A stretch of DNA of 38,013 nucleotides, from NCBI GenBank assembly GCA_028712255.1, contig JAQTQJ010000016.1, positions 1 through 38,013 on the forward strand, given 5' to 3'. This DNA comes from Candidatus Omnitrophota bacterium. GTDB lineage: Bacteria > Omnitrophota > Gorgyraeia > Gygaellales > Profunditerraquicolaceae. This document shows positions 2,554 through 25,020 of the stretch, in pieces (within the stretch, counting starts at the first letter, position 1; each line of letters starts with the position of its first letter). The translations under genes were made by a program, and so were the position numbers. Below the pieces are notes generated by a model. That model saw only the letters and a program-made list of their open reading frames with translations. It did no database searches and had not been told where the DNA came from.

Positions 2554-2619
2554 ATAGATAGATTCTTTTTATTCCGCTTTCCTGCCTTCATATCCAAACA
2601 TTTCGAACGCCTGTTTTCT

Positions 2620-4223: not shown

Positions 4224-5453
4224 CTACAAGCCTTTTGCTGTAGGGTGCCCACATTTATTACGGGCATGCTCTACGGTTAACTTTCGCCATTTATCCTTAT
4301 CTAACTTGGAATAAAGATCCCTAAACTCCTGCAACAAAAACTCGGGAGTCACTTTTGTTTCTACGCTAAATATTTTCTGCTTATCTGTTGCAAAAGAAAA
4401 ATTTTTTCCGGTTTCAAATCCATACCTCCTTATATTCGGCAATTGAAAAAACAAATAAGGCAAATCACTGTATAAAGCGATCGTGGTAACTCCCGATATT
4501 GTAGCCATATACATGAGGGAAGCACGGATTAAAGCAAGATCTTCCATTATTGATGTTCCGTAGTCTTTTGCAATTATCACATTTGATCTTTCGCGCAAGC
4601 CATCAAATGCTTCTTCTCTTAATCCAATAAAAATAAAAACTATTTCAGGAAATTTTACTTTGCATTTATCCAAAAAAGAAAACCATACACTAGGATCGGC
4701 ATTCCTCTGTGTATCATGAGTTGTTCTTTTCAAAGAAAAGGTTACCGCAAAAGTATTACTCGGTAAATAATTCTGGTAAAACCACTTAGCCCAGGAGACA
4801 TCTCGTTCGCCTACCCTTAGGTAGGGAATAAATCCTCGGACTTTATGAAACTCCTGAAATTCATTATTATGCGGCTCCCCTCCCCTAAAATTGTATGTTT
4901 CAGCCAGATGCTGCCCTAAAGAAGGATAAAGAATATAACGTTCGGGATTATTCTTTAAGAATATATGGAATTCTTCTCTTTTACTAAATTGGAATACTGA
5001 GCCAAGGAACGGACAAGTACCAAATAAAGGAAGAAATTCAAGCATGTAATCCTGAGAGTTTTCAGATGTTAAGCTACTCACAAATTTATGGATCCCCCCA
5101 GGCTTTCGATTCCCATCTGGGTCATCGCGATCATAAATAATACAGATATCAACTTCTTCAGCATCATATTTAATTTTTAAAGTACTTAATTTTTCAATAA
5201 AGACCAGGGGGTCGCCAATTGACCAAGGCAATGCCTTAAAATCCCAGATGCCTAAAATACGTTTCTTTTTTAAACTGGGCATAAAAAACAATTTTAGGAA
5301 ACGATAGTAAGCCCCAAGATGTAACCTCCATGGGCTGAGATATTTACAGTAATTATGGAATCGCGCAATAGCGATTTTAAAAGACCCGATAATGCCGTGT
5401 TTATTTATCTTACTTACAACACTATCACTTTTTATTAATGTCACTCGTGCCAT
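4224..5453 (-). CDS. Unassigned protein, possibly a GT-B-type glycosyltransferase
   Basis: A 409-residue protein I do not firmly recognise. There is no signal peptide or clear membrane segment, though residues about 40-65 are basic and hydrophobic. The C-terminal half alternates strands and helices in a way seen in GT-B enzymes: TFAVTFSLKRTTHD (234-247), then EIVFIFIGLREEAFD (270-284), then NVIIAKDYGTSIMEDLALIRAS and SGVTTIALYSDLP (320-332), resembling the donor-binding half of heptosyltransferase (GT9)-like proteins. The first half has GIWDFKALPWSIGD. It overlaps the end of the flippase gene by 13 nt and so is translationally tied to it. A glycosyltransferase role is inferred from context and this loose pattern. 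The C-terminus is short and basic. Confidence 0.75.
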   Translation of the reverse strand: MARVTLIKSDSVVSKINKHGIIGSFKIAIARFHNYCKYLSPWRLHLGAYYRFLKLFFMPSLKKKRILGIWDFKALPWSIGDPLVFIEKLSTLKIKYDAEEVDICIIYDRDDPDGNRKPGGIHKFVSSLTSENSQDYMLEFLPLFGTCPFLGSVFQFSKREEFHIFLKNNPERYILYPSLGQHLAETYNFRGGEPHNNEFQEFHKVRGFIPYLRVGERDVSWAKWFYQNYLPSNTFAVTFSLKRTTHDTQRNADPSVWFSFLDKCKVKFPEIVFIFIGLREEAFDGLRERSNVIIAKDYGTSIMEDLALIRASLMYMATISGVTTIALYSDLPYLFFQLPNIRRYGFETGKNFSFATDKQKIFSVETKVTPEFLLQEFRDLYSKLDKDKWRKLTVEHARNKCGHPTAKGL

Positions 5454-6808
5454 TTATTCTTATATTTTAGCCATGTTAAAAAAATTAACGGGATTATGAT
5501 TAAGCTTACAATCAAATATCCCCCAGCCATACCTGTGGCAGAATACCATTTTCCCAAAGTCAAATTTGACACGGCTGTTAAAATGCCAGCGCTAACTGAC
5601 AAGAATAAAAGCGGTTCCTGCTTATGGGCCCTTAGGTATCCTGAAACAGGTAACGAAACAGCCTGCAGAATCTGTGCAAAAGCAAGAATCCCCAGCGGTA
5701 ATGGAGTTAAAAGACGCATTGCAAAAGGATGGTGAAAAACATTCAACATGTACACTATAAACCAGGCAGTTAATGCTATGGAGCTAGATACTAATATTGT
5801 TATTTTCATAAGACGCCAGAAAAGCCTGTCCAACTCGTTGTAATTTTTCTGAGCAATCATCATCCCGTATTGTGGTATTTTAGGGGCAATCCAAGCATTA
5901 GCAATTGAAGGGATTAAACCCACCGCGCTCCAAGTCAATCCCATTTGGCCCGCAACTACAGCTCCGTGATATTTAAATAAAACAGGGACAAAGAAATAAT
6001 GCAAAAAATATCCACAAGTGCAGCTTAAGCCAATCCTCCATTGCATAGGCCAAATTTCACGGAACCAGGATAATTTTTCTTTAATCTTAAAAGTAAATAA
6101 TAATGTATCGAAAAAATGGCGGTATTTTCTTAAAATAAAAATAGCAAAAAATAATAGGCTTATTATATTGGTAAAAGTTAAAGCCCATAAATTAGTATGT
6201 AGAAATATTGATGTCCAGAGTGTTATTTTAACAAATAGAAGCTGATAGAAGAAAAAAGCATAAAGATTAGATACTTGGTTGCAGCCTTCTAATACTGCAT
6301 TTATAGGCAGAGTAAGGATAGTTATACTGGTTAAAAGACAAAGAGAGAACCACGGAAGTTTCCAATTAATATCTGAAGCCGGAGACATAGAAAAGAAATA
6401 GTAACCGCCTACCCCTAATCCGATTAAAACCAATAACGCGGCAATCCCATACCATTTAATTGTAAAACGAGTCAAACTGGCTAGCTTGGAAATAGACGCG
6501 CTATCGCCAGTTATATAACCAGCGTTATTTAATCTTAGATGCGACCATTCGTGAGCGGCAAATTGGACAATAACGATACAAAGCCCCAATTCAACTAAAG
6601 TCTGCAACGCAAGTAAACTCAAAAAAGTATAATAATACCCCTGCATCTTTGCCGTAAAAATACTGGCTATTAAAATACCCGTAATTGGCGCAGCTATCAG
6701 ATTGAAGATTCTAAATAAAATGCCAAAGAATACCGGCCTGTCTATAGAAGCTTTATTCATAAAAAACCGTGATGTACCTTTTAATCTTAAGAAATAAGTT
6801 TTAAACAT
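5441..6808 (-). CDS. wzx: Wzx-type polysaccharide flippase (MOP superfamily)
   Basis: A 455-residue, very hydrophobic protein with about 12 predicted membrane spans and short charged loops, the size and shape of Wzx/RfbX exporters that flip undecaprenyl-linked repeat units across the inner membrane. The first span (RPVFFGILFRIFNLIAAPIT) and a second half beginning near KLSWFREIWPMQWRIGLS fit the two-lobe MATE-like architecture. I use the ATG at 6808, which has AAGG 5 nt upstream and overlaps the end of the preceding gene by 22 nt; an ATG at 6760 is a possible alternative. Wzx sequences are very diverse, so family assignment rests on length, topology and context rather than a motif. It implies Wzx/Wzy-dependent export for this locus. 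Confidence 0.82.
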   Translation of the reverse strand: MFKTYFLRLKGTSRFFMNKASIDRPVFFGILFRIFNLIAAPITGILIASIFTAKMQGYYYTFLSLLALQTLVELGLCIVIVQFAAHEWSHLRLNNAGYITGDSASISKLASLTRFTIKWYGIAALLVLIGLGVGGYYFFSMSPASDINWKLPWFSLCLLTSITILTLPINAVLEGCNQVSNLYAFFFYQLLFVKITLWTSIFLHTNLWALTFTNIISLLFFAIFILRKYRHFFDTLLFTFKIKEKLSWFREIWPMQWRIGLSCTCGYFLHYFFVPVLFKYHGAVVAGQMGLTWSAVGLIPSIANAWIAPKIPQYGMMIAQKNYNELDRLFWRLMKITILVSSSIALTAWFIVYMLNVFHHPFAMRLLTPLPLGILAFAQILQAVSLPVSGYLRAHKQEPLLFLSVSAGILTAVSNLTLGKWYSATGMAGGYLIVSLIIIPLIFLTWLKYKNKWHE

Positions 6809-8877
6809 AACCGCCTTAATTTTCTTGCAAAAGCAGCTCCCAATACTCGTTTCAGGAATGGTTTAGATTTTTGTGCAAGAAAAGGAATAGCTTTAGGAAA
6901 AAGTGCGATAGATTCCAGCAGCAGGATGGCTAAAGAACAAATCATTCTATAGATAATACCCCTTATTCTCAACCGCGTAATAAACTTACGGACATATTTT
7001 GATATGTTCAGGCCAAAAGCTTTATTATGGGGGATTAAATTCAAAATTTTAGGGACGCTTATCTTGTTCCTTGAATAGAATACCATTAGTTTGAGCTCTG
7101 CATCGTAAGCTTGATCATCAGCTACCAGAATAGTATCAGGTAGTATAGAAAGCAATTCATCTGTTTTTATTTTTGGTATATAAGCAAATAACGAATCTTG
7201 ATTACCTTTCTTTTTAAAGTCGAGAAAACCCTTTATTTTTTTGAAATTTAGCCCGAAATGATCATAGCGCAATAGATTCATTGCTTGTAATTCAGTCCCA
7301 ACAATTATCAATTTCTCTGTCATCATCAATTGACGGCATAAAAAATCAAAATGGCCGGAAAAATCAATAAGCTTATAATAATCTGCGTATAAAACAGAGT
7401 AACATTTAGGACAATAGGTTAATTGCCCTAATAGATCAAAGCTAGAATGTATTTTAATTGGGCTACCGCATTCTGAACATATCCCGATAACCACAACAGC
7501 TGAAAATAACCGGTTATATTTATATTGAAGGTCTATTACCCTAAATCTTTTATATAAAAAAGTATAAAAGCGCCTAAGCTCACCGAAGATCACTTCCCAG
7601 AAACGATCATTTGGGATATCGCTGATATTCAGATAGGCCTCCCTATTTATCCATGATAGATCATAGGGGGTAGGGGTAAAAAGCGCTCTTTTATAATAGT
7701 CCCTTTCATTGCTGACTAATCCCCTCTTTAAAGCATTCTTATAGATCTGCGTGCCGGGATAAGCATGTGTTAAGCTTGCGTCACAATTCATTTCCTCAGC
7801 GATAACCATATCAATTGTTTCCTTAATATCCTCCTTAGCTTCTCTCTCATTTCCGACCATAAATGTTCCTAGAGAAGGCAAACAAGTTTTTTTTGACCAT
7901 CTATAAAAATTTATGATCTGCTCTTTAGAAGTCAGCTTTTTCATAATCTTTAATACCTTATTGGATCCACTCTCTATGCCAGCCCCGGTTAAAATACATC
8001 CAGCCTCTTTCATCGCAACAAAAGTATCCTCATCGATGCCTTTCACATCTACCCGCATTGCAGCCATCCAGGGTTTTCGAACTTTTAATTTCTTGTATTC
8101 TTGGCAAAACTGTAAAATGTCCTCCTTATTCTGATAGAACATCTCGTTAAGGATATTGAGAATATCGAAATTGTATCTAGAAAATAATAAATCGATTTCT
8201 TCCATAACATGCCCTACGGGACGTTTCTGGAATACTCCGACTGTCGGAGAACAAAACGCACATACCCCAACACATCCCCTTCCGGTCACTACCGGCAAGA
8301 CAACTTGATTTGCCATATAAGAAACATCGGAATATTTATAAAATTCCATATTAATACGATGCCAAGCAGGAAACACATTAACATCCTGTAAATTAAACCG
8401 CATAGGGACATTTTTAGTAATCTGCCCTGTACCTTTGTTTTTAAAAATTAACCCGGGTATATCTTGGATGGATTCAGAACCATTATTTAACCTATCTATT
8501 AAATAGGGCAGCGAAGTTTCTGCCTCGCCTATAATTCCGTAATCGATCCCTAGCATGTCTTTGTCAAAAAGAAACTCCGGATTTACATCCTTAGTAATAT
8601 TTCCCCCCATTATAACCGGTAAATCGTCCCGTATTGAACGAATTACCCTAATAGTCTTTGATATAAAGTCATAATTTGAAATTAATCCTCCAGTTGCAAA
8701 AGCTAAATAATCATTCTTTTTAAAAAGTTTTTTATAATTTGGGCGGGTAAATGTTGCATCGATAAAATCGAAAGGTATATTATTTTTCTCTAAACACGAA
8801 AGGACATAAGCTATCCCCATAGGGATATGCCTATACGGCGGTTTAACGATCAATAATTTTTTATTTATATTTTGCAT
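6787..8877 (-). CDS. Radical SAM protein with B12-type domain, zinc ribbon and Rossmann-like extension
   Basis: A 696-residue protein, about 200 residues longer than the other B12-type radical-SAM proteins in this locus. Domains in order: Rossmann-like B12-binding type (1-140, IIGEAE at 115-120); radical-SAM barrel with GCVGVCAFC (C202, C206, C209) and GAGIESG (298-304); a four-cysteine ribbon with CSEC (467-470) and CPKC (489-492); a Rossmann-like segment starting EKLIIVGTELQAMNLL (521-536) and running to about 612; then a basic, partly hydrophobic tail (640-696). The ribbon plus Rossmann part recalls nucleotide-sugar-modifying C-terminal domains, which is inference. The gene starts 11 nt after the alcohol dehydrogenase stop and overlaps the flippase start. 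Substrate unknown; a sugar or a lipid-linked sugar is plausible. Confidence 0.88.
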   Translation of the reverse strand: MQNINKKLLIVKPPYRHIPMGIAYVLSCLEKNNIPFDFIDATFTRPNYKKLFKKNDYLAFATGGLISNYDFISKTIRVIRSIRDDLPVIMGGNITKDVNPEFLFDKDMLGIDYGIIGEAETSLPYLIDRLNNGSESIQDIPGLIFKNKGTGQITKNVPMRFNLQDVNVFPAWHRINMEFYKYSDVSYMANQVVLPVVTGRGCVGVCAFCSPTVGVFQKRPVGHVMEEIDLLFSRYNFDILNILNEMFYQNKEDILQFCQEYKKLKVRKPWMAAMRVDVKGIDEDTFVAMKEAGCILTGAGIESGSNKVLKIMKKLTSKEQIINFYRWSKKTCLPSLGTFMVGNEREAKEDIKETIDMVIAEEMNCDASLTHAYPGTQIYKNALKRGLVSNERDYYKRALFTPTPYDLSWINREAYLNISDIPNDRFWEVIFGELRRFYTFLYKRFRVIDLQYKYNRLFSAVVVIGICSECGSPIKIHSSFDLLGQLTYCPKCYSVLYADYYKLIDFSGHFDFLCRQLMMTEKLIIVGTELQAMNLLRYDHFGLNFKKIKGFLDFKKKGNQDSLFAYIPKIKTDELLSILPDTILVADDQAYDAELKLMVFYSRNKISVPKILNLIPHNKAFGLNISKYVRKFITRLRIRGIIYRMICSLAILLLESIALFPKAIPFLAQKSKPFLKRVLGAAFARKLRRLCLKLIS

Positions 8878-8888: not shown

Positions 8889-9935
8889 CTATTGCTCATT
8901 CATGTCTATTAATATCCTGCCTGCCTTGCCGCAATTTAGACCTTCAAGTGCTTCATTTACCCGATTTAGTTTGAAACAATGGGTAATCAAATCGCTTAAT
9001 CCCAGCTTACCCTTTAAGTACCACTGCGCATATAACGGTATGTCTCTATCCGGGTTTGTTTCTCCTCCCCAAGTGCCAACAATTTGTTTGCCCCTGATCA
9101 GGTCAAAGGGATCAATTAAAATTTTCTCTCCTTGAGGTAAATTTCCTGCTATTACGCATACTCCTCCCCTGTCTCTAGCTGATTTAAAAGCGATTTCCAT
9201 TGTCTCGCATCTTCCTGCGCACTCAATCGTATAATCAACTCCTTTTTGAGACGTAAGTCCCATAATAGCCGATAAGACATCTTCTTTGGCCGCGTTTATA
9301 ATATGGGTAGCTCCCAATTTAAGAGATCTTTCAAGCTTATCATCTGAAATATCAATAGCGATAATTATCGCGGCACCATTTAGCTTTGCCGCTAATAAAG
9401 CACTTGATCCGATCCCCCCTACGCCAAAAATAGCAATACTGCTGCCAGTTCTCATTTTTATCGTATTGATAATAATACCGGCGCCTGTGGGTATCGCGCA
9501 GCCTAAAAGAGCAGCTTCATATAAAGGCATCTCATCTGGAATCTTTACCAGGCGATTTTCTGCAATAACAGCATAGGTTAAAAACGTAGCTATAGCGCCA
9601 GAATTGACTATTAAACCATTTTTCCCTTTATACGAAATTGGTAAAGCATTGCCTCCGCTTCCTTTAATCCACGTTAGTACGACCTTATCATTGGTTTTAA
9701 CTTTTTTTACACCTGGCCCTATCGAATCAACGATGCCAGAACCCTCGTGCCCTAATGTATGCGGCAAGAATTTATCCTCACCTTTTAACCCCTTAATTTC
9801 GTTTAACTGCGTATGACAAATACCGCTATAGGCGATTTTAACTAAAACCTGCCCCTTCCTGAGGTTAGGAATATTCAATTCTTCTATTTTTAAAGGATGA
9901 TTTATTTTATGTAATACCGCAGCTAAAGTTTTCAT
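8889..9935 (-). CDS. Zinc-dependent medium-chain alcohol dehydrogenase, structural zinc site absent
   Basis: A 348-residue member of the medium-chain dehydrogenase family (NAD(P)-dependent alcohol/aldehyde or polyol oxidoreductase). Catalytic zinc ligands are visible: C40 in GICHTQ, H63-E64 in GHEG, and C146 in GCAIPTG. The nucleotide-binding fold has GVGGIG at 171-176 and D195 at the end of the second strand, which favours NAD over NADP. The loop that normally holds four cysteines for the structural zinc (about 88-110) contains none. A good site, GGAAGA, precedes the ATG. It follows the methyltransferase by 12 nt and the transketolase pair just upstream, so it may reduce or oxidise an aldehyde or ketone intermediate of a modified sugar; that role is inference. 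Confidence 0.92.
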   Translation of the reverse strand: MKTLAAVLHKINHPLKIEELNIPNLRKGQVLVKIAYSGICHTQLNEIKGLKGEDKFLPHTLGHEGSGIVDSIGPGVKKVKTNDKVVLTWIKGSGGNALPISYKGKNGLIVNSGAIATFLTYAVIAENRLVKIPDEMPLYEAALLGCAIPTGAGIIINTIKMRTGSSIAIFGVGGIGSSALLAAKLNGAAIIIAIDISDDKLERSLKLGATHIINAAKEDVLSAIMGLTSQKGVDYTIECAGRCETMEIAFKSARDRGGVCVIAGNLPQGEKILIDPFDLIRGKQIVGTWGGETNPDRDIPLYAQWYLKGKLGLSDLITHCFKLNRVNEALEGLNCGKAGRILIDMNEQ

Positions 9936-9947
9936 TGTTTCTTCCGA

Positions 9948-10604
9948 TTAATCCGCTATGAACCACCAGTAGTCTCCCGCATACCCCACTTCCTTGAATA
10001 GTTTCTCCCACTCATCCACATGCATCATTGTTTCAGCTGTAAGAACCCATTTAAATAAATTTTCGCGCTCCAAATCGTTACGCCAGGCATCTACCGTTAT
10101 ATAGCTATTCCCCCTGCAAACACGTTCTATCTCTTTAAGGGCTATTTTAAGCCGCTGAAAAGGCAAATTATGAATTGAATTAATAGAGATAACTAAATCA
10201 AAGGATTTATCAGGATAGGGAAGATTTTCCGCGCTGGCAACCTTAAGAAAAGATTTTACTGAAGGCATGGAATTTTCAATCGCATATTCACTTATATCTA
10301 TACCGGCCACAATAGCTTTTGGCATCTGTTCTTTAAAATCATGGAGCATAAATCCTTTAGCGCATCCGATATCTAGGATTGAAGCATTATCTGCTAGTTT
10401 ATAATAATCTTTCATGCGTTCTACAATCAATTTCCATCGGCCGTCATATTTATATCCGCCGTAACCACATTTTCTATCTCCGTCAAAAAACTCTCTGCCG
10501 AACTGCTTAGCTAGACGGATAACTTCTGCATTTTTTTCTTTCATCCGTCTATCATAATCGCGTTCAACTTTTGGATAATCGCCTAATAAATTTATTCCTC
10601 TCAT
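9948..10604 (-). CDS. SAM-dependent class I methyltransferase
   Basis: A 218-residue protein with a Methyltransf_11-type Rossmann fold: motif I SILDIGCAKGF (75-85), an acidic second strand GIDISEYA, then ASAENLPYPDKSFDLVIS (motifs II and III). The N-terminal 70 residues are charged and unlike a known domain; the C-terminal 40 are rich in aromatic residues (YAGDYWWFIAD end). The family transfers methyl groups to O, N or C atoms of small molecules. Its position 4 nt after the transketolase C gene and just before the alcohol dehydrogenase suggests action on a sugar or keto-sugar made by that set, but the acceptor cannot be read from the sequence. Confidence 0.88.
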   Translation of the reverse strand: MRGINLLGDYPKVERDYDRRMKEKNAEVIRLAKQFGREFFDGDRKCGYGGYKYDGRWKLIVERMKDYYKLADNASILDIGCAKGFMLHDFKEQMPKAIVAGIDISEYAIENSMPSVKSFLKVASAENLPYPDKSFDLVISINSIHNLPFQRLKIALKEIERVCRGNSYITVDAWRNDLERENLFKWVLTAETMMHVDEWEKLFKEVGYAGDYWWFIAD

Positions 10605-10608
10605 GGGA

Positions 10609-11529
10609 TTAAAATAAATCGTCCTTGACTTTCTTTAGAATGTTTTCAACAGTAAAACCTAAAATTCCACAAATATCTTCGTATGAACCATAATCTCTGA
10701 TGAATATATCAGGTATAGAGATAAAAGAATACTTCACTCCACCCATACCCCTGGTGATTCTTAAGATTTCATCCCCCATCCCCCCATACATACTATGTTC
10801 TTCTATGACAAAAACCCTTTTCGTTTTATTGATACTACCCAACACTAATTCTTCATCAAAAGGTTTGATAGTATGGATATAAATTATCTCAACATCAATT
10901 CCTTCTTTCTTTAATTGAATAGCCGCATTCAAAACAGTTTTTAACTGAGGACCTGTAACTACTACGGTAATATCCTTGCCTGTACTTATAACCATACCCT
11001 TACCTACCATAAGCTTGTCTTGGCTAAAGACATAACCATGGGATAATTTTGGCACTCTAAAATAAGATAACTTTCCATTATTGTAAGTTTGTTTGAATAG
11101 AGTATTTAATTCTATGGGAGAAGACGGGAAAAAAATTTGTGTCTCAGGTAAAGGTTTTAATAAAGCAAAATCCACATAACAGTGGTGCGTACAGCCTAAC
11201 GTAGAATAGTCAAAGGCACTGCCGACAGTAATAATGTTAGCCCCTAATTTTTGATAACAGAAATCCAATTTTATTTGTTCATAAGACCTTTCTACAATAA
11301 AAGGTGCTATGGTATGCACAACCGGGTAAAAACCAAGCTTTGATAAGCCTGCCGCCATATTTACTATTGTCGGCTCACAGATACCGATATTGTAGTAGCG
11401 GCCCGGACAGGCCTTAGCAAAATCTTGCAGTCTAAAATGGCTTATATCACCGACCATAACCATAAGATTTTTATCCATCTTTCCTACTTCCAAAAGGGTA
11501 TCAGCAAACTCCTGACGCATATCTTTCAT
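10609..11529 (-). CDS. Transketolase, C-terminal subunit
   Basis: A 306-residue stand-alone version of the pyrimidine-binding and C-terminal domains of transketolase. The glutamate that activates the thiamine ring is E52 in NIGICEPTIVNMAAG. The C-terminal domain begins near KLMVGKGMVISTGKDITVVVTG and contains FVIEEHSMYGGMGDE. It starts inside the stop of the N-terminal subunit (ATGA overlap 11529-11526), so the two chains are made in equal amounts and should pair as an active enzyme, as known for split transketolases of many bacteria and archaea. Transketolase moves a two-carbon ketol unit between sugars. In a glycan locus the acceptor may be an unusual aldehyde rather than ribose-5-phosphate; this is inference. 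Confidence 0.93.
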   Translation of the reverse strand: MKDMRQEFADTLLEVGKMDKNLMVMVGDISHFRLQDFAKACPGRYYNIGICEPTIVNMAAGLSKLGFYPVVHTIAPFIVERSYEQIKLDFCYQKLGANIITVGSAFDYSTLGCTHHCYVDFALLKPLPETQIFFPSSPIELNTLFKQTYNNGKLSYFRVPKLSHGYVFSQDKLMVGKGMVISTGKDITVVVTGPQLKTVLNAAIQLKKEGIDVEIIYIHTIKPFDEELVLGSINKTKRVFVIEEHSMYGGMGDEILRITRGMGGVKYSFISIPDIFIRDYGSYEDICGILGFTVENILKKVKDDLF

Positions 11530-12302
11530 ACTCCAAGCTCCTTATACATCAATTGAACTTCTTCCTGGTTTGGAACCTTATAATGCCATGGGCCATGGGT
11601 CTCCATAAATTTAACGCCCTTGCCCTTCACAGTATCTGCAATTATCACCTTAGGCTTTGAATTAAAATTAAACTTTATTTTTTTGAAAACTTTTTCTATT
11701 GCTTTATCGTTATGGCCGTTGATTCTGTGCACCTCCCACCCAAAAGAGCTCCACTTTTTAACAAAATCAGACATAGGCAAAACCTGGGCCGTTGAACCGT
11801 TATTATCAACTATGCAACAAAAGTTTCCCAGGTTAAGTTTTGCGGCAACCAGGGCAACTTCCCAAACCGTGCCTTCATTACATTCACCATCCCCGACAAG
11901 AACAATTACTTTGTTTTTCTTTTTTTTAATCTTAAGGCCCAAAGCAATCCCTAATGCCGTAACAATACCATGCCCCAAGGAACCTGTAGAAGCCTCAACT
12001 CCAGGAACCTTGGTCATATCCGGATGCCCTCCTAAGATAGCCCCCAGTTTACTTTTATTATCTAAATCTTTTTGTGTAATAAAACCATGCTTCTCCAGGA
12101 CAACATAAAGAGCTGCACAACCATGTCCTTTACTTAAAACAAAATAATCTCTCTCGCTCCAAGCAGGTTCTTTAGGGTCGAACTTAAGAACCGCCTTATA
12201 CAAATGAGCAACTATATCGATAATAGAAAAAGCGCTAGGAATATGCCCTTCTCCTGCCTTATAAACCATATCAATTATTTTTTTCCTTAGGTACCTATTC
12301 AT
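11526..12302 (-). CDS. Transketolase, N-terminal subunit
   Basis: A 258-residue thiamine-diphosphate-binding half of transketolase. Family motifs: GEGHIPSA (17-24), SKGHG (57-61), TGSLGHG (106-112), the metal/diphosphate motif GDGECNEG (137-144) with DNN at 166-168, and KGKGVKFME near the end. The frame is open to 12398, but the ATG at 12302 gives the usual transketolase start and clears the FkbM gene by 10 nt. The invariant histidine-rich N-terminal segment of full-length enzymes is shortened, as is normal for the split form. Partner of the next gene. No pentose-phosphate genes accompany it, which argues for a specialised biosynthetic role. Confidence 0.93.
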   Translation of the reverse strand: MNRYLRKKIIDMVYKAGEGHIPSAFSIIDIVAHLYKAVLKFDPKEPAWSERDYFVLSKGHGCAALYVVLEKHGFITQKDLDNKSKLGAILGGHPDMTKVPGVEASTGSLGHGIVTALGIALGLKIKKKKNKVIVLVGDGECNEGTVWEVALVAAKLNLGNFCCIVDNNGSTAQVLPMSDFVKKWSSFGWEVHRINGHNDKAIEKVFKKIKFNFNSKPKVIIADTVKGKGVKFMETHGPWHYKVPNQEEVQLMYKELGV

Positions 12303-12312
12303 AATAAATTTA

Positions 12313-13173
12313 TTAAAATCCTGGCACGGAATCCTTGCGGCTGATGAAAAGTGTCCCCTCCTTATACCCACAGGGCATTTCTTTAACGCCCCGCACAAGC
12401 TTCCAGTTATTTTTTTGTGAAAAAAGGTTTACGTTTAACTCTTTAAAATGTCTATATATTAAAGCTGCGTTTATTTCATTCTCAACCTCAACTAATGCAT
12501 CCGTAGTCAGCCAATCCCCTCTTTTAGTACCCAAAAGAATTTCTTTCTCATGACCTTCAGCATCAAGTTTTATTAAATCTGCCCAGCCCATTATTGAAAC
12601 AAAATCTATTGTAGAAACTGTAAATTTTTTGAGTTTGCCATAAGGGTGGGCTTTTGAACCAGCCAGATGACTGCCTGTAGTATTGCCAACCACCCTAATA
12701 AACTCGGAGTCGCCGATTTTATTAGAGACCGCACAGTTGAATACCTGGACATGTTTGCATTTATTTAAAGAAAGATTACGAATTATTATTTTAAAATGTT
12801 TAGGATCTGGTTCATACGACCGCACCCGATAACCACATTTATCCAAAATTATGGAATGTAATCCTAAATTGGCTCCAATGTCTAAAACATTACGGTACCT
12901 TTTACGATTACGCCAATAAAAACTAAATATTATAAGTTCGTCTAAATCAAACAAATTAAGCGAATCAATCGACCCCATCTTATGGTAAGGGAATATCAGC
13001 CTGCCAAAAGGTCCGAATATCTCTTTAATAGTTTTTCTATTGTTAGAAATACTCTCAACCTGTAGCCTGGCAATCTGTTTTAAAAAAGCATGCACCTGGG
13101 AACTGGGCTGATGATAATCTTTTAGCAAAGGCAGGGATAAAAAAAGATTTTCCAAAATTAAAGAATTTTCCAT
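12313..13173 (-). CDS. FkbM family methyltransferase
   Basis: A 286-residue protein with FkbM signatures: VLDIGANLGLHSII (96-109, SAM binding), SYEPDPKHF (119-127), and ADLIKLDAEGHEKEIL (198-213), which carries the conserved I-K-x-D-x-E-G-x-E box. FkbM enzymes O-methylate sugars or polyketides in glycan and antibiotic clusters. About 90 N-terminal residues precede the catalytic fold and are not recognised. The start codon directly follows the stop of the SDR gene (TAAATG), and the gene ends 10 nt before the transketolase pair. Probable job: O-methylation of a sugar in the repeat unit. Confidence 0.92.
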   Translation of the reverse strand: MENSLILENLFLSLPLLKDYHQPSSQVHAFLKQIARLQVESISNNRKTIKEIFGPFGRLIFPYHKMGSIDSLNLFDLDELIIFSFYWRNRKRYRNVLDIGANLGLHSIILDKCGYRVRSYEPDPKHFKIIIRNLSLNKCKHVQVFNCAVSNKIGDSEFIRVVGNTTGSHLAGSKAHPYGKLKKFTVSTIDFVSIMGWADLIKLDAEGHEKEILLGTKRGDWLTTDALVEVENEINAALIYRHFKELNVNLFSQKNNWKLVRGVKEMPCGYKEGTLFISRKDSVPGF

Positions 13174-14007
13174 TTAGCCCTCAAGGTTATTTTTTAATAA
13201 ATCGTTTCCAAATCTTCTAAGCTTATATATATTATCATCTGTTCGTAGGAAATTTTCTAATTTCTTTGACCCCCACTTGTCAAAAACTACACTAAAATTT
13301 CTTCCGCTAACAACCTCACGAGAAGAAGAAATAAGCCAATCGCAACAATCCAACACCTGTTTCATCGGAGTACACTCTTTTCCCGATAACTTATCAATAG
13401 TTCGTTTATAATTTGCTCCCGCGCGCCCGCGAGCGTCCATGGTAGAATTGTGTATTTTCGTTTTTACCCAACCCGGACCAATAATTGTAAAATTAGTATC
13501 TTTAATCTCAGAATCCAACAGTTCGCACATTTTTATTAAGGCAATCTTTGAGACAATATAGGCTGAGTAATTAACCGGCGCGTTATTCGTGCCTCCTCCG
13601 GCGAAAAACAATACGCAAGGATTCACCCTATTAGGGATATTTCTGAGCGGAAGTAAGGCACGGACAATCCGTACTTGACTGGTAAAATTAACCTTAACTG
13701 AAGCCTCCCATTCTTCAAAATCAGCATGCATAAAAGGCCCTATCGGATCCTGGCTACCCGGACATAATACCAAAACATCCCATTTCCCGCATAGCGACTT
13801 TAAATCTGAAACTGATTTATTAATAGCTGTAACGCTGGCTAAATCACAAGGAACAAGTTTGACATTTCTTCTGGTTAATTTCGGTAAAATAGCTGAATAT
13901 GTCCTATATGTGCCAAATACTTTCCACCCGGCAGTTGCCCAACGTAATGCCATCGCGCTACCGATATCACTGGATACTGAAATAATAATTGCCGTACGCT
14001 TTCTCAT
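13174..14007 (-). CDS. Short-chain dehydrogenase/reductase, atypical
   Basis: A 277-residue classical SDR fold: N-terminal nucleotide loop TAIIISVSSDIGSAMA (5-20, where the first glycine of GxxxGIG is serine), a CPG segment in place of NAG near 82-84, Y150 and K154 of YxxxK in SAYIVSK, and the IGPGWVKT (PG) motif near 176-183. The catalytic serine normally 13 residues before the tyrosine is G137 in FFAGGGTNN, so the triad is incomplete. I chose ATG 14007, 10 nt after the E1-beta stop, because the longer frame to 14067 overlaps that gene. It lies between the two thiamine-enzyme pairs and may reduce the carbonyl they create, which is inference. Confidence 0.88.
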   Translation of the reverse strand: MRKRTAIIISVSSDIGSAMALRWATAGWKVFGTYRTYSAILPKLTRRNVKLVPCDLASVTAINKSVSDLKSLCGKWDVLVLCPGSQDPIGPFMHADFEEWEASVKVNFTSQVRIVRALLPLRNIPNRVNPCVLFFAGGGTNNAPVNYSAYIVSKIALIKMCELLDSEIKDTNFTIIGPGWVKTKIHNSTMDARGRAGANYKRTIDKLSGKECTPMKQVLDCCDWLISSSREVVSGRNFSVVFDKWGSKKLENFLRTDDNIYKLRRFGNDLLKNNLEG

Positions 14008-14017
14008 TTTAGTCTTA

Positions 14018-15088
14018 TTAAAAAGGACCTTTAAATGTTTTATCCGGAACATCAAAACCAATACCACCTTTAATAACCGATGGTTTTTCCGGTATTCCGG
14101 GGAGATTAAACATTGTTCTTACACTATTGCATATATCTACCGCCCTTGGATAATAATGTTTCGCAAGGGCGTGGCTTGTAGGGATGGGGGTATCAGGGAA
14201 AGTAATCCGCTGGGGATTATTTTTAAGTAAGCCGCACCCTTTTTCTGCTGCCAAGGCAATTACTTCTGACGCAACGCCAAAGTTCATCCATCCGCCATCT
14301 ACTGCAATGAGACGATGAGTTTTCCTGACTGACTTAATTATAGATTCTTCATCCAAGGGTTTTATAGAACGCAGGTCCATTACCTCAGCCTCAATGCCTT
14401 CTTTCTTTAAAAGCTCGGCTGCGCGCAACGACTCTAAAACCATATAAGATGAAGAAATAATAGTAACATCCCTCCCTCTCTTCATTATTTTTGATTTTCC
14501 TATCGGCTCTTTATACATTTTTTTCGGGACATAACCATAAGTTCCATGCAACCAGCGATGTTCAATAAAAATCACGGGATTGTCATCCTCAACCGCTGAA
14601 ATCAATAATCCTTTTGCGTCATAAGCAGTAGCAGGCATTACCACCTTCAAGCCTGGGATTGAAGCCAATAATGAGCTTAAATTTTGTGAATGTTGCGGAC
14701 CCTGACCCCAGCCCATTCCTATAATCATGCGGATAACTAACGGAACTTTCATCTTTCCGCCAAACATATAATGCCATTTGGCAGCATTATTAATTATCTG
14801 GTCTAAAGACAGAACCGTAAAATCAACCCGTTGGTGCGTTAAAATCGGACGCATACCCACTAAGCTCGAACCTATCGCTACTCCGGTCATGGCATTTTCA
14901 GCAACAGGCATATCCATTACCCTGCTCCCGTATTTTTCTTTAAGGCCAAGGGTAGTCCCGAATATGCCTTTCGGATCGGTGACACCCAATCCTATGACAT
15001 AAACCATCCTGTCTTTAGCCAAGCACTGACTTGTCGCTTCAAGAATAGCCTGCTTGTAGGTAATCTCTCTCATTCTGTTATTAGGCAT
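14018..15088 (-). CDS. Pyruvate/2-oxoacid dehydrogenase E1 component, beta subunit-like
   Basis: A 356-residue transketolase-like pyrimidine-binding protein of the E1-beta (PdhB/AcoB) type. E64 in MPVAENAMTGVAIG is the glutamate that activates the thiamine cofactor; the C-terminal domain has EGIEAEVMDLRSIKPLDEESI, a signature of the family. About 30 extra C-terminal residues follow the usual end. The ATG overlaps the stop of the E1-alpha gene by 8 nt, so the pair is co-translated. In dehydrogenase complexes this subunit works with E2 lipoyl transferase and E3; neither is present in the window. A stand-alone role in decarboxylating an oxoacid and passing the two-carbon unit to a sugar is possible, but inferred. 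Confidence 0.92.
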   Translation of the reverse strand: MPNNRMREITYKQAILEATSQCLAKDRMVYVIGLGVTDPKGIFGTTLGLKEKYGSRVMDMPVAENAMTGVAIGSSLVGMRPILTHQRVDFTVLSLDQIINNAAKWHYMFGGKMKVPLVIRMIIGMGWGQGPQHSQNLSSLLASIPGLKVVMPATAYDAKGLLISAVEDDNPVIFIEHRWLHGTYGYVPKKMYKEPIGKSKIMKRGRDVTIISSSYMVLESLRAAELLKKEGIEAEVMDLRSIKPLDEESIIKSVRKTHRLIAVDGGWMNFGVASEVIALAAEKGCGLLKNNPQRITFPDTPIPTSHALAKHYYPRAVDICNSVRTMFNLPGIPEKPSVIKGGIGFDVPDKTFKGPF

Positions 15089-16052
15089 AAATATCAGTCA
15101 AAACTTCTTTCTTTTCCGGAAAAGGTGATTTTTTCGCAAACTCAACGGCCATATTTATCTCCTGCTGAACTTTTGCTCTAATGAGGAATATTTCCTTCTT
15201 GTCCACTACTCCTCTTTTTATCAATTTCTTTTCAAAATTGCCTAACGGGCATTTCTTCAACCAATAGTTAAATTCGCGTTTGCTTCTATAATTAAGCTCG
15301 TGGTCAAAACTATGCCCGCAATGTTCACGGTACCTGTAAGTATCGAATTGCAGGAACGCCGGCCCCTTCCTATTCCTAGCGAATCTAACCGCCTTTTTTG
15401 TTATTTGATAAACCGAAGCCGCATCATTGCCATCGCCTCTTTGCGCATAAATACCGTATCCTTTAGCAATCATCAGATTATCCCGCTCTTTTGGCTGGCG
15501 TGCTGATAATGGCGAATATACCGAATACCGGTTATTTTCGCATACGAAAACAATGGGTAATTTTTTTAAGGCGGCAAAATTAAGGCTCTCCGAAAAAACC
15601 CCCTCTTCGGTGGCGGCATCGCCGAAGAAAACAACAGTTACTTTTTTTTCTTTTTTCAAAGCCGATCCGAACGCAACACCTACTGCTACCGGAATCATGC
15701 CGGCTACTATAGGAGTAGAACCTAAGAAATTCACATTTAAGTCTACTAGATGCATGGAGCCACCCTTGCCCTTTGAGCACCCGGAAGCTTTTCCATAAAG
15801 CTCCGCCAGCATTGCTTTTAAATTGCCGCCTTTGGCTAAAAAGTGCCCGTGGCTTCTATGGTTGCTTAATACATAATCATCTTGCTTCAGGTTTGCGCAT
15901 ACGCCTGCAGCTATCCCCTCCTGACCTATGCAAATGTGCACCGGGCAGCGCATTTCTTGTTCGGGATATAGTTGACAGATCTTCTCCTCTACCATACGGA
16001 TCCTAAGCATTTGATAATATAACGCAAGAAATAATTTTTTATTTATTTTCAT
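15081..16052 (-). CDS. Thiamine-diphosphate dehydrogenase E1 component, alpha subunit-like
   Basis: A 323-residue E1-alpha (PdhA/AcoA) homologue. HRSHGHFLAKG (65-75) and KGGSMH (96-101) are family motifs; the thiamine diphosphate/Mg motif is GDAATEEGVF (144-153) with ENN at 172-174. The loop YRYREHCGHSFDHELNYRS (239-257) matches the conserved active-site loop, here of the AcoA-like REHCG type. There is no lipoyl or E2 domain. It pairs with the E1-beta-like gene overlapping its stop codon. Homologous pairs occur in sugar gene clusters, where they are thought to add a carbon branch or act on keto-sugars; a housekeeping pyruvate dehydrogenase is unlikely in this context. Confidence 0.92.
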   Translation of the reverse strand: MKINKKLFLALYYQMLRIRMVEEKICQLYPEQEMRCPVHICIGQEGIAAGVCANLKQDDYVLSNHRSHGHFLAKGGNLKAMLAELYGKASGCSKGKGGSMHLVDLNVNFLGSTPIVAGMIPVAVGVAFGSALKKEKKVTVVFFGDAATEEGVFSESLNFAALKKLPIVFVCENNRYSVYSPLSARQPKERDNLMIAKGYGIYAQRGDGNDAASVYQITKKAVRFARNRKGPAFLQFDTYRYREHCGHSFDHELNYRSKREFNYWLKKCPLGNFEKKLIKRGVVDKKEIFLIRAKVQQEINMAVEFAKKSPFPEKKEVLTDIYA

Positions 16053-16057: not shown

Positions 16058-16996
16058 TTAAAGCTTAAGTGCCTTCATTGTCTTTATATTATACCATCGG
16101 TCTTCATCCTTGAGCTGGCCTGCCTGGAAGGCATTAACAACTTCCCCTATTGCCTCGTCCACACAATATTTCGGCTTAAACCCTATACCCAATAACTTTT
16201 GAGAACAAAGCCTGTAGGAACGGGGATCGTTAGATTCACTGACTATAATCTTGGCAGGAATACACGCAGCCACTTTATTAGCAATGCCAAGGATAGATAT
16301 ATTCTCAAAACCAGCATTAAACACACCGCAAATCTCAGTTCCCTTATTAAGAAAATACAAATAGACTCCTACCATATCCCCTAAATGAATATTGGGACGC
16401 GTCTGGTTACCTCCTAATACAGTAATTTTGCCATTGACTAAAGCCTGCATTGTCAGCATGTTTACCGAAAGGTCCAAACGCATTCGCGGGGAAAAACCGC
16501 AGACCGTGGCCGGACGTAAAATTTGAACGCATATTCTATCCTGGTAACTCATAAGTACCCGCTCGCTTATCATTTTAGTTTTATTATAATCTGATATAGG
16601 AACAAGAGAAAGCTCTTCTGTGACCTGAGCTTCATCCTTTACTCCGTAAACGCTACCGGAACTTGCCAGAATAAATTGCTTTACCTTATACTGTATTGCC
16701 CGCTCCGCCAAACGCATTGTCGCTAACACATTGACCTCCCAGGCTAGTTTAGAATTTAGTTCTCCACAGGGGTCATTAGCAATATTAGCTAAATGTATGA
16801 CTGCATCTATGCCCTCCATCGGAATATTATCTATATTACGTATGTCTTCTTTAATAACTTTTAAATTTTTATGCTTAACCAGATAATTACCAAACCACTG
16901 AATGTCTACTACAGTAACATAGTAGCCTTCGGCTAAAAGGGCTTGAGTCAAGGCTGTTCCAATATAACCGCATCCGCCTGTTAACAAAATATGCAT
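16058..16996 (-). CDS. NAD-dependent epimerase/dehydratase (extended SDR)
   Basis: A 312-residue extended SDR acting on a nucleotide-sugar. GGCGYIG (7-13) binds NAD; the catalytic site has ASSGSVYG (111-118) and Y137/K141 in SDYNKTK. RPATVCGFSPRMRLDLSVN (161-179) is a characteristic substrate-side segment that I associate with SDRs in heptose and O-antigen clusters. AGGAG lies 8 nt before the ATG, so the start is secure. It follows the GMD-like SDR by 11 nt and belongs with the HldE/GmhA heptose module, where a nucleotide-heptose epimerase or reductase would be needed. The exact substrate cannot be decided from sequence alone. Confidence 0.9.
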   Translation of the reverse strand: MHILLTGGCGYIGTALTQALLAEGYYVTVVDIQWFGNYLVKHKNLKVIKEDIRNIDNIPMEGIDAVIHLANIANDPCGELNSKLAWEVNVLATMRLAERAIQYKVKQFILASSGSVYGVKDEAQVTEELSLVPISDYNKTKMISERVLMSYQDRICVQILRPATVCGFSPRMRLDLSVNMLTMQALVNGKITVLGGNQTRPNIHLGDMVGVYLYFLNKGTEICGVFNAGFENISILGIANKVAACIPAKIIVSESNDPRSYRLCSQKLLGIGFKPKYCVDEAIGEVVNAFQAGQLKDEDRWYNIKTMKALKL

Positions 16997-17007
16997 AAAA
17001 GCATCTC

Positions 17008-17997
17008 CTATGGTTTGTGAATATAATGCAAAGGCTGTTTCTTAAGTATCCCCAGATTATCCCTCACCCAGGCAATTGTTTCTTCAATTCCCTGTTCTAA
17101 CCCAATCTTATCCTCCCAGCCCAGAATATCCTTGGCTTTCGAACTATCAAGTAAATAGGCTGCATCTTTACCCGGGCGATCTTCTATCTCCTCAATATTC
17201 TCCGCAAGAGAAATATTCATCTGCCTTGCGATCATTCCCACTAGGCCGCGGATGGATATTTTAAAAGCAGTAGAAAAATGGAATATCTCCCCTCCGCCGG
17301 AAAGCCGGGCTGCCTTTAATATGCCATCAACAACATCGCGGATATGGATAAAAGAACGCACGGACTGCCCTCCGCCATGAAGTGGTATTTTTTTCCCTGT
17401 AAGAAAATAAAAAATACTTTTAGGAACTATTCTATAAAGCTGTTGCCCGGGGCCATAAACATTGGCGGCGCGGGTGAATACTACCGGGAAATTATATGTC
17501 TTATAAAAACTCATCAAGCTCATATCAGCCGCAGCCCGGGAAACAGCATAGGGAGTGCTGGGATTATACACTATACCCTCTTTAATCAGCCCAACACAAT
17601 TTCCATATACCTCAGGCGTTGAGATATGGACATATTTTTTTAAAAATTCACAGTTACGTAGTTGATCGTGCAACTTTATACAAGCAACTACATTAGTCTG
17701 GAACCAGTGTTCGGGATGCACCCAACTCTCGCCAACCATACTCTGGGCCGCGAAATTAACAACATAGTCGGGCTTAAATCTATTTATGACCTCCATAATT
17801 TTTTCTAAATCATGATTGATATCCAGCTGGTAAAATTTAAATGCATTACTTTTTTGTTTTATATACGGTAAAAATACCCCGCTTGGTTCTTGAGAACGAC
17901 TGATACCTATAGCATCCAGGCCTTCACCTAAGGCAAGATCAACAAAATTTGAACCTGAAAAAGAATTGCTTCCGATTATAATAACCTTCTCATTCAT
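17008..17997 (-). CDS. GDP-mannose/dTDP-glucose 4,6-dehydratase-like SDR
   Basis: A 329-residue extended SDR. GSNSFSG (9-15) binds NAD, STPEVYG (126-132) holds the catalytic threonine and glutamate, and RAANVYGPGQ lies near 176-185. The expected YxxxK is Y150-A-V-S-R154: lysine is replaced by arginine (codon CGG), and the Asp of the RmlB-type TDE triad is proline. Both changes may be traits of a subfamily rather than damage, since the rest is well preserved. The start at ATG 17997 has AAGG 6 nt upstream and overlaps the GmhA-like stop by 8 nt; the ATG at 18012 is less likely. Probable role: 4,6-dehydration or oxidation of a nucleotide-heptose or -hexose. Confidence 0.9.
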   Translation of the reverse strand: MNEKVIIIGSNSFSGSNFVDLALGEGLDAIGISRSQEPSGVFLPYIKQKSNAFKFYQLDINHDLEKIMEVINRFKPDYVVNFAAQSMVGESWVHPEHWFQTNVVACIKLHDQLRNCEFLKKYVHISTPEVYGNCVGLIKEGIVYNPSTPYAVSRAAADMSLMSFYKTYNFPVVFTRAANVYGPGQQLYRIVPKSIFYFLTGKKIPLHGGGQSVRSFIHIRDVVDGILKAARLSGGGEIFHFSTAFKISIRGLVGMIARQMNISLAENIEEIEDRPGKDAAYLLDSSKAKDILGWEDKIGLEQGIEETIAWVRDNLGILKKQPLHYIHKP

Positions 17998-18577
17998 TTT
18001 CAGCCTTAACATTTTTAGTAATCATATCAACTATACAATGACAAATGGCATGATGCACTATTTCTACCGGTCCATATCCTGAAAACGGCACATAGAAATT
18101 AAGTTCCCCGAAGCAGCGCAACGGATTATCCGGTTTAAAACCGGATAATGTGATTATGCGACAATTATTTTTGCCTGCCATTTTTGTTGCGCGGATTATA
18201 TTCTCGGATTTGCCGGAACTACTGATAGCTAATAGTATATCGCCGGAATCAACAAATACTTCAATTGGCCTATCGAATACATGTTTATACCCGCAATCGT
18301 TACTGATGCAAGTAAGTAAGGCATGGTCGTTGAAAGCTACAGCCTTAACCCCGCAGTTTTTCCATAGATCCACCGCTATATGGCTTGAGATAGAAGCGCT
18401 TGCGCCGTTTCCGATTAGCATAATCTTGTTGCCAGACGCCTTTTTATCAATCAACAGGCCGGCTGTCCAGGTTAAACCCTTGTCAAAACCTATATTCCTG
18501 CCTTTATTGTCTGTTACAACAACCTTATCCAGTAATAATTTCAAATTTTTAAAATACCCCTGCGTATTAATCTTCAT
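17990..18577 (-). CDS. gmhA: SIS-domain phosphosugar isomerase, GmhA-like
   Basis: A 195-residue SIS protein. GNGASASISSHIA (56-68) and SSSGKSENIIRA (119-130) are the two phosphosugar-binding loops, and VEIVHHAICHCIVD (171-184) is the GmhA-type helix with metal/catalytic histidines. GmhA converts sedoheptulose-7-phosphate to D-glycero-D-manno-heptose-7-phosphate, the first step of nucleotide-heptose synthesis. It starts in the stop of the HldE-like gene (ATGA, 18577-18574) with GAGG 8 nt upstream. Kinase and nucleotidyltransferase activities are in that gene; no GmhB-type phosphatase is in the window, so it must come from elsewhere or be bypassed. The N-terminal 30 residues are less typical. 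Confidence 0.88.
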   Translation of the reverse strand: MKINTQGYFKNLKLLLDKVVVTDNKGRNIGFDKGLTWTAGLLIDKKASGNKIMLIGNGASASISSHIAVDLWKNCGVKAVAFNDHALLTCISNDCGYKHVFDRPIEVFVDSGDILLAISSSGKSENIIRATKMAGKNNCRIITLSGFKPDNPLRCFGELNFYVPFSGYGPVEIVHHAICHCIVDMITKNVKAENE

Positions 18578-20106
18578 TTTAGCAACCTCGTAATGAATTT
18601 AAGCACATCAACTTTGTTTACCGCTTCCCTATTGCATACTATCTGAGTAGCTAGTGAGCCTGCGACATTACCGATAAAAGAAGCTAGATCCTGGGGCATG
18701 CCCGAGGCAAAACACGGAGCAACAAAAGCAAAAAAAGCATCTCCTGCTCCGATAGGATCAATCACCTTATACGCGAATGCCGGAGTTTCATAAAATCCAT
18801 CTCCTGCTGTATAGCTCATGGAACCGCTTGACCCGCGAGTAGCAATGATATTCTTGCATTTTAGCTGATTATATATTTTCTTCATATGGGCACGCAAATC
18901 ATTAAACCTATCGTGAGTGGCATATCTTAATTCCATCTCGTCAATACACACGCAATCAGCGCTGGGATACTTCGTAACCAGGTTAAAACCTATGTTTGCG
19001 CTGTTGGTCTGCACGTTTATCGCAAGATACTTAGCCTTTGCGCAGATTAATTTTATTATGTTTTTTGTAAGTAAACCATGCCCGAAATCATTGCTGATGA
19101 CAAGGTCGTACTTTCTTATTGTCTTATCCAAACGACTTAATACCTTACTTTCGATCTCTTTCGGTATACAAGAATCATCCATATAACAGATCTCGAATAG
19201 TTTTCTGCCAACGCTTACACTCACAAACCTTCTTTTTATTATCGTCCCCGTATCCGGCCTAGTAATAAAAACAGGCTCAATATTAACGTTGAGCTTGCTT
19301 CTGATAAAACCTTCAAATGAATCTTTTTCCCCCAGGACGGTTAGCAGGTCTACTTTACCACATACAGATGCGGCATTATTAGCGGTCGCTAGAGCGCCTC
19401 CAGCAAAATATTCTTCGGAACAATACTTATTAACTACAAGATGCTCTTTTGAAGACTTACCCATAGGCGCACAGTAATGATACTGGTCGATAATTGCATC
19501 CCCTATTATCAGCACGTTCAAATTACTCAGGTGTTCAATCTTTTTAGAGATAGAATCCAGCGGATACCGCTTTCCCAAGGCTTTAAGGTATTTCACCGTC
19601 CTTTCCGGAAACACATCTATAAAGCTATTGAGTAGCTTCGAAGAACTAAAAGTAATGTCATCGGTTACAAACAACCTTCCTCCAACTGATTTTACCGCAT
19701 CTTCCTCTTCGCGGATCTTTCCGGTAACATCTTTATCTTTGTCGCGGTAATCCGGGCCTTTGGCATAAACATCGGGTTTAAGGATTCTGATTGCCTCGAC
19801 CGCGGTAGGCGAATTTAATAAACTCACGTAGTCAGTGACGGCCAGAGAAGCTAAAACCTCAGCCCGTAAATACTCGTTAAAATAAGGCCGGCCCGGCCCC
19901 CTCCTTACAAACTGATCCTTTGTAAGCGTAACTACAAGAATATCTCCTTCTTTTTTTGCCTGGTTAAAATGGCGGATGTGGCCTAGATGCACGAGATCAA
20001 ATACGCCGTGGCATTGAACAATTTTTTTCCCTTTGCTTTTGAGACCTTCAATTATTCTTGCCAATTTATTTAGCGGCTGAATTTTTTTTAAATCATTCTT
20101 TTCCAT
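18574..20106 (-). CDS. Bifunctional heptose nucleotidyltransferase/kinase, HldE-like with reversed domain order
   Basis: A 510-residue fusion. Residues 25-165 are a cytidylyltransferase-type domain (HGVFDLVHLGH, 33-43, with the HxGH motif at 40-43); residues 195-510 are a PfkB sugar kinase (LIIGDAIID at 199-207, FAGGALATANNA at 234-245, and GAGD at 453-456 in DPIGAGDAFFAF). E. coli HldE has the kinase first, so the order is inverted. Expected reactions: phosphorylate heptose-7-phosphate at C1, then transfer a nucleotide (ADP or CDP) to heptose-1-phosphate. It has a GGGAG site 4 nt before the ATG and overlaps the GmhA-like gene, forming a heptose module. Inverted fusions are known in some bacteria; nucleotide specificity is not readable. 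Confidence 0.9.
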   Translation of the reverse strand: MEKNDLKKIQPLNKLARIIEGLKSKGKKIVQCHGVFDLVHLGHIRHFNQAKKEGDILVVTLTKDQFVRRGPGRPYFNEYLRAEVLASLAVTDYVSLLNSPTAVEAIRILKPDVYAKGPDYRDKDKDVTGKIREEEDAVKSVGGRLFVTDDITFSSSKLLNSFIDVFPERTVKYLKALGKRYPLDSISKKIEHLSNLNVLIIGDAIIDQYHYCAPMGKSSKEHLVVNKYCSEEYFAGGALATANNAASVCGKVDLLTVLGEKDSFEGFIRSKLNVNIEPVFITRPDTGTIIKRRFVSVSVGRKLFEICYMDDSCIPKEIESKVLSRLDKTIRKYDLVISNDFGHGLLTKNIIKLICAKAKYLAINVQTNSANIGFNLVTKYPSADCVCIDEMELRYATHDRFNDLRAHMKKIYNQLKCKNIIATRGSSGSMSYTAGDGFYETPAFAYKVIDPIGAGDAFFAFVAPCFASGMPQDLASFIGNVAGSLATQIVCNREAVNKVDVLKFITRLLK

Positions 20107-25018: not shown

Positions 25019-25020
25019 AT

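Follow-up and report, generated by a model that had tools for sequence, protein, structure and literature searches.

Why would a bacterium keep two dissimilar two-chain enzymes of thiamine diphosphate (ThDP) chemistry in a single glycan operon? The question is raised by a 38,013-base stretch of DNA from a Candidatus Omnitrophota bacterium, which is an entire contig (C16) of a 1.7 Mb genome that is 96% complete (G000), and which we call the window. On its minus strand, within one glycan operon, lie a pair of genes resembling the alpha and beta subunits of the E1 component of 2-oxoacid dehydrogenases (15081-16052, the ThDP-binding half, E1_dh at 9e-69; and 14018-15088, PRK09212 at 7e-94) and the two halves of a split transketolase (TK), namely TK-N with the ThDP domain (11526-12302; Transketolase_N 6e-44, 6YAK 8e-62) and TK-C (10609-11529; PRK05899 2e-40, 6YAJ 3.5e-43). 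A preliminary description of this DNA had reported both pairs together with an SDR oxidoreductase, an FkbM-family methyltransferase, a further methyltransferase and a zinc dehydrogenase, and Pfam and NCBIfam matches confirm each of these at the same positions. Its claim that the active sites are intact also holds, as the catalytic and ThDP-binding residues of both pairs align with those of human pyruvate dehydrogenase (PDH) E1 and of the split transketolase 6YAJ/6YAK. Both enzymes look like metabolic enzymes modified so as to put short carbon branches onto sugars, and we consider it probable that the genes between about 8889 and 20106 together build an activated, branched high-carbon sugar destined for a surface glycan, with the E1 pair adding an acetyl branch and the TK a second two-carbon (C2) unit.

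An ordinary E1 would require a lipoyl-bearing partner. No match to E2 (PF00198) was found anywhere in the host genome, in a search whose control was positive in 10 of 14 reference genomes; therefore, the E1 pair can have no place in a standard dehydrogenase complex. The preliminary description had noted neither E2 nor E3 in the window; the first absence now extends to the whole genome, but an E3-like lipoamide dehydrogenase is encoded elsewhere in it, on contig C9. This arrangement recurs in the phylum: among 193 Omnitrophota genomes, a close E1-beta is present in 53 and an E2 in 32, and 39 of the 53 have no E2 (the overlap was counted by hand), with only one (G010) having its E1-beta gene adjoining an E2 gene.

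Alignments set apart one group of E1-beta proteins by a C-terminal tail ending in F-x-GPF, which in the window reads DVPDKTFKGPF. In a set comprising the Omnitrophota loci and a further 80 from other genomes, E2 lay within 9 kb of none of the 64 tail-bearing E1-beta genes, as compared with 16 of the 87 others. In a tree of 116 E1-beta sequences, which is unrooted and contains one very long branch (L178), all E2-linked sequences group together in a 33-row clade (SH-aLRT 100) that excludes the window protein, which sits among the tail-bearing sequences. The alpha subunits differ as well: of 54 tail-type loci, 52 have a loop EH[CV]G (YREHCG in the window), versus GH in all 16 E2-linked loci. In PDH and branched-chain 2-oxoacid dehydrogenase (BCKDH), this loop becomes ordered on ThDP and receives the lipoyl domain. 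Near the catalytic His, glycan-type E1-beta proteins carry H-Q-R-x-D-F and G-x-GWG, positions at which the E2-linked proteins in the comparison differ. The nearest solved relatives of the pair are human and Geobacillus PDH E1, and the predicted E1-beta model (pLDDT 88) best matches human PDH E1-beta in the PDB, at a TM score of 0.89. Compared with the E1 of PDH and BCKDH, then, the window enzyme keeps the fold, ThDP site and catalytic residues and differs in its missing E2, changed alpha loop, added beta tail and separate clade. Judged by its sequence, it is a member of a widespread E2-free family marked by that loop and tail. The position of the tail in the model was considered as a clue to function and proved uninformative, as the tail is disordered in the monomer.

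Several other loci with E1-like genes stand out. In two of them (L080:13935-16043 and L110:2600-4824), E1-alpha and E1-beta apparently form one fused chain of about 700 to 740 residues. On an Azospirillum oryzae plasmid (L176:9378-15310), genes for SIS and PfkB-kinase proteins accompany a tail-type E1 pair, and DegT aminotransferases come next, which suggest an aminated branch. On the plasmid pSGRIFU1 of Streptomyces griseofuscus (L178:10989-13035), a pair with the EH[CV]G loop is found amid carrier-protein, ketosynthase and condensation-domain genes and not among sugar genes.

The Streptomyces arrangement, together with the intact E1 fold and catalytic residues and the E3-like lipoamide dehydrogenase of the host, gives some room to the idea that the window pair works as a genuine dehydrogenase, or hands acetyl or another acyl group to some lipoyl or carrier protein that has escaped recognition, and serves N- or O-acyl decoration. 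However, the host genome has no E2, none is found near the 64 tail-type loci, the lipoyl-accepting loop of PDH and BCKDH has a changed sequence here, and no acyltransferase or carrier protein is noted beside the E1 pair in the window's gene list. We regard such an acyl-transfer role as improbable.

Branching of a sugar by such a pair would have good precedent. A 2025 review lists exactly three classes of ThDP enzymes as users of ketones: YerE-like lyases, which act on O-antigen and other cell-surface sugars; the alpha-KADH2 enzymes, E1-like pairs that use a C2 unit from pyruvate to branch antibiotic sugars; and split transketolases, for which this is a proposal (PMC12247030). The preliminary description had offered only single-chain YerE as a precedent, but two-subunit E1-like enzymes are well known and split transketolases have already been proposed (PMC12247030, PMC4425429). 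For instance, E1-like pairs branch sugars in avilamycin, paulomycin, aldgamycin and kibdelomycin biosynthesis (PMC12247030, PMC4425429), with further support in papers on paulomycin and everninomicin (PMC4425429, PMC10338323), and the evidence for alpha-KADH2 activity comprises feeding and knock-out experiments plus, for KbDH, activity in vitro (PMC12247030). Like AviB1/AviB2, Pau11/Pau12, the aldgamycin enzyme and KbDH-alpha/beta, the window E1 is a two-subunit PDH-E1-like ThDP enzyme without E2 or E3 in a sugar-modifying cluster, here with a nucleoside diphosphate (NDP)-sugar dehydratase and epimerase, a likeness drawn from descriptions of AviB1/B2, Pau11/12 and KbDH and not from direct sequence comparison. 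The known alpha-KADH2 members, which place C2 from pyruvate onto a keto sugar, belong to actinobacterial antibiotic genes, whereas the window family turns up across many phyla in loci for surface glycans, accompanied by genes of heptose-type activation and by a second ThDP ligase. By this analogy, the window pair would decarboxylate pyruvate on ThDP and transfer the acetyl unit to a ring ketone of an NDP-keto sugar instead of to lipoyl.

What, then, is the transketolase for? Its nearest solved relative is the split transketolase 6YAJ/6YAK of Carboxydothermus hydrogenoformans, which has the same two-chain architecture and is the best solved match of both chains. In alignments, the window-type enzymes retain the catalytic Glu, the GDG motif and the active-site His residues. 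At the positions of Ser385, His461, Asp469 and Arg520 of the E. coli enzyme, however, they carry Phe, Tyr or Gly; Gly; Leu; and a mixed set, respectively. In the yeast and E. coli enzymes, this Ser, His and Arg bind the sugar phosphate, and the Asp reads the hydroxyl of the ketose. These residues are lost in all five cluster enzymes, the window TK-C and four relatives, and kept in human transketolase, in 6YAJ and in a second split transketolase of the host genome, which lies amid housekeeping genes on contig C15; part of the same losses is seen in some other non-housekeeping transketolases of the phylum. As the pocket residues are gone, the window enzyme is not expected to use pentose phosphates.

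This bears on a simpler explanation of the pair. Sedoheptulose-7-phosphate is a transketolase product, and the same gene run holds a GmhA-like isomerase and an HldE-like kinase/nucleotidyltransferase; the TK might merely supply sedoheptulose-7-phosphate to these neighbours, leaving the sugar to be branched by E1 alone. The preliminary description had stated that there is no pentose-phosphate gene here, which is right only in the narrow sense, given the sedoheptulose-7-phosphate-isomerase-like and HldE-like genes of the run. Nevertheless, a transketolase for which pentose phosphates are not the expected substrates argues against such supply, and the host already has a housekeeping split transketolase with its pocket in place. 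In addition, sister clusters with the same heptose genes carry a YerE-like enzyme and no TK, and therefore no heptose-linked TK is needed. We give this explanation little credence.

Close relatives of the TK (TK-C identity of at least 49%) were found in four other loci: two in Omnitrophota (L047, L078), one in Verrucomicrobiota (L104) and one in Aestuariibacter of the Alteromonadaceae (L134). All five window-type enzymes lie 2 to 6 kb from a tail-type E1 pair, over three phyla in all, and in the tree they form one clade (100/100) apart from the housekeeping transketolase. The co-occurrence that the preliminary description had proposed to look for across genomes is thus found, and neither pair groups with housekeeping enzymes. 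A hand estimate, made with no formal test, gives about 0.3 expected cases of a TK within 10 kb of an E1-beta gene in Omnitrophota, against 4 seen. For some high-GC loci, tblastn was used instead of picking open reading frames, given that antisense frames masked E1-beta, TK and SDR genes. A second TK clade also adjoins E1 pairs, directly after E1 in L187 and together with a YerE-like gene in L081. The latter locus (L081:4600-11300) has three ThDP systems in one run, as an E1-alpha/beta pair and a TK pair from this other clade are joined there by a YerE-like enzyme.

In published work, split transketolases have been proposed to place a C2 ketol on a keto sugar in miharamycin and amipurimycin biosynthesis; ketol transfer to a ketone is unproven, all 13 are from Streptomycetes, no ketone-accepting transketolase has been demonstrated, and there is no structure of a ketone-accepting E1 or transketolase (PMC12247030). 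The window enzyme resembles these in standing in a keto-sugar cluster with an SDR and differs in being found in Omnitrophota, Verrucomicrobiota and Gammaproteobacteria, near an E1 pair. The window and its relatives combine the alpha-KADH2 class with one of the other two ketone-using classes. In the partial literature that we covered, no report describes such a combination, or a transketolase together with an E1 dehydrogenase at loci for O-antigen or heptose. Each enzyme alone has precedent, and it is their conserved pairing in surface-glycan loci that seems undescribed.

A second copy of the cluster in the same genome indicates what the TK may be doing. Contig C7 holds a paralogous cluster in nearly the same gene order: isomerase, dehydratase, kinase/nucleotidyltransferase, epimerase, E1-alpha, E1-beta, radical SAM, SDR, methyltransferase, a single-chain ThDP enzyme, a homologue of the second window methyltransferase (MT_A), alcohol dehydrogenase and Wzx. 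The same contig holds a further E1-like alpha/beta pair (L011:16840-18731), the third of the genome, which adjoins an epimerase gene and is 24% identical to the window E1-beta. The single-chain ThDP enzyme has its best PDB match to 8RPH (1.4e-101), which is JanthE (PMC12188165), a YerE-like lyase joining oxoacids to ketones; like YerE and ErwE, it belongs to a group that branches deoxy-keto sugars of lipopolysaccharide. The window TK pair occupies the slot held by this enzyme, and no single-chain enzyme of the decarboxylase superfamily (YerE-like) is found among the window's annotated genes. The same holds more widely: eight syntenic loci (C7, L044, L049, L100, L101, L103, L111 and L113) have a good YerE-like gene and no TK, while the YerE-like gene is absent from all four other window-type TK loci. 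Thus, across window-type and sister clusters, the two kinds of gene replace one another, and a YerE-like enzyme would be the second ligase of the sister clusters.

The SDR genes suggest how the window came by its version. In the four other TK loci, an SDR of one family (47 to 60% alike where compared) lies directly upstream of TK-N. The window SDR (13174-14007; adh_short 5e-20) is parted from the TK genes only by the FkbM gene (12313-13173; TIGR01444 1.3e-23), but it belongs with the YerE-linked SDR family instead, with 47% identity to the SDR of C7 and 52% to that of L111. The simplest reading of these similarities is that the TK pair took over the place of a YerE-like enzyme and the cluster kept its old SDR. 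This swap, read from a single locus, would be consistent with the two ligases giving products so similar that a single reductase can handle either.

It could be objected that glycan loci are mosaics that easily gain genes, and that these are housekeeping enzymes, decayed or inserted by accident. The frames are open, however, the catalytic residues are intact, the gene order is conserved across phyla and a paralogous cluster exists in the same genome, all of which make this explanation highly implausible.

The remaining genes of the run allow a tentative order of events. Upstream of E1-alpha (16058-20106) lie genes for an NAD-dependent nucleotide-sugar epimerase/reductase (16058-16996; Epimerase 1.5e-32), a nucleotide-sugar 4,6-dehydratase-like protein with the motif STPEVYG (17008-18012; TIGR01181 1e-58, below the curated cut-off, and GDP_Man_Dehyd 9.5e-48), a GmhA-like SIS-domain sugar-phosphate isomerase (17990-18577; PRK00414 1e-25, below the curated cut-off) and an HldE-like fused nucleotidyltransferase and PfkB-type kinase (18574-20106; PRK11316 5e-48, below the curated cut-off), all on the minus strand. 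Judging from these families, the isomerase and the HldE-like protein would yield an NDP-activated, probably heptose-type sugar, which the dehydratase and epimerase would convert to an NDP-4-keto-6-deoxy sugar. The E1 pair would then add its acetyl branch. The split TK, acting without phosphorylated ketoses, may be the second sugar-branching ligase; the unit transferred would be a ketol (hydroxyacetyl) or a comparable C2 group, and the acceptor a carbonyl on the sugar branched by E1 or on an adjacent one. Finally, the SDR and a zinc-dependent alcohol dehydrogenase (8889-9935; ADH_zinc_N 4e-25) could adjust the oxidation state of the ketones, and the FkbM protein and the class I SAM methyltransferase MT_A (9948-10604; Methyltransf_11 3e-19) could methylate the product. 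MT_A is a steady companion of the E1 family, with a homologue near 20 of 45 tail-type E1-beta loci, and a homologue of the alcohol dehydrogenase lies near 11 of 45, versus none of 67 other E1-beta loci in each case; FkbM homologues occur in TK loci and YerE-like loci alike. The core of what the preliminary description had imagined, two lipoyl-free ThDP enzymes that modify keto sugars by C2 transfer before reduction and methylation, survives because there is no E2, the E1 lies outside the E2-linked clade, its loop and tail are changed, the TK pocket is dismantled and the pairing recurs in other phyla; its donors, acceptor and product are predictions.

Several considerations weigh against this pathway. 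The substrates and products are predictions for every member, none of the branched glycans in the literature could be matched to one of the loci, and the close TK is found in five loci only. Moreover, co-location is no proof that both enzymes share one sugar. The two enzymes might instead branch two different sugars of one glycan, one branch each, and be merely grouped by the operon; in agreement with this, the block of SDR, methyltransferase and ligase comes and goes independently of the E1 core, and loci with a single ligase are common. Yet the block is embedded inside the E1 core gene run, which has a single set of sugar-activating genes, and we consider the two-sugar arrangement a real possibility that is rather less than probable. 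Whether both ligases act on one sugar we regard as about evenly balanced. In its boldest form, our proposal of successive branching would describe a conserved pathway of surface-glycan synthesis in several phyla, in which two ThDP carboligases act in series (E1 for acetyl and split TK for ketol, or a YerE-like enzyme in place of the latter) to make an undescribed doubly branched sugar of at least 10 carbons, with the first transketolases that truly accept ketones; this we put forward as doubtful. Bradyrhizose (C10) was considered as a product and is a lead only; the Bradyrhizobium operon holds a dehydratase (PMC4743980).

According to the review cited above, sugar branching by E1-type and TK-type enzymes belongs almost entirely to actinobacterial antibiotics (PMC12247030). 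A conserved module of E1 with TK, or with a YerE-like enzyme, in the surface-glycan loci of many phyla would supply nature's own enzyme sets for tests of ketone acceptance by ThDP enzymes, and it suggests that bacterial envelopes contain branched sugars yet to be discovered. The EH[CV]G loop of E1-alpha and the F-x-GPF tail of E1-beta are simple marks that separate such E1s from pyruvate dehydrogenases, with which annotation currently confuses them. Methylobacter tundripaludum and Azospirillum are cultivable carriers, of the E1 module only.

Some details of the locus may be of use to others. We place the start of TK-N at the ATG at 12302, and open reading frame callers lengthen it to a TTG at 12398. 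The SDR gene overlaps E1-beta only if it begins at a GTG, and the ATG near 14007 is the likelier start. A homologue of the 16058-16996 epimerase adjoins E1-alpha in the C7 cluster and in many other loci. In the HldE-like protein, rfaE_dom_II covers residues 19-156 and rfaE_dom_I residues 190-487, so that the nucleotidyltransferase precedes the kinase, whereas E. coli HldE has them the other way round; the C7 cluster and many relatives seem to share the order of the window protein. A gene for a GmhB-like phosphatase is present on contig C11 of the host genome. Elsewhere in the window, a nonulosonic-acid-like block (24581-27989) encodes a NeuB-like synthase, a PseF-like CMP transferase, a class III aminotransferase and a glyoxalase-fold (VOC) protein, and the glycan cluster includes several radical-SAM proteins (within 322-8877, 21735-23063 and 31911-33146), some of which, by sequence, have an N-terminal part resembling a B12-binding domain.

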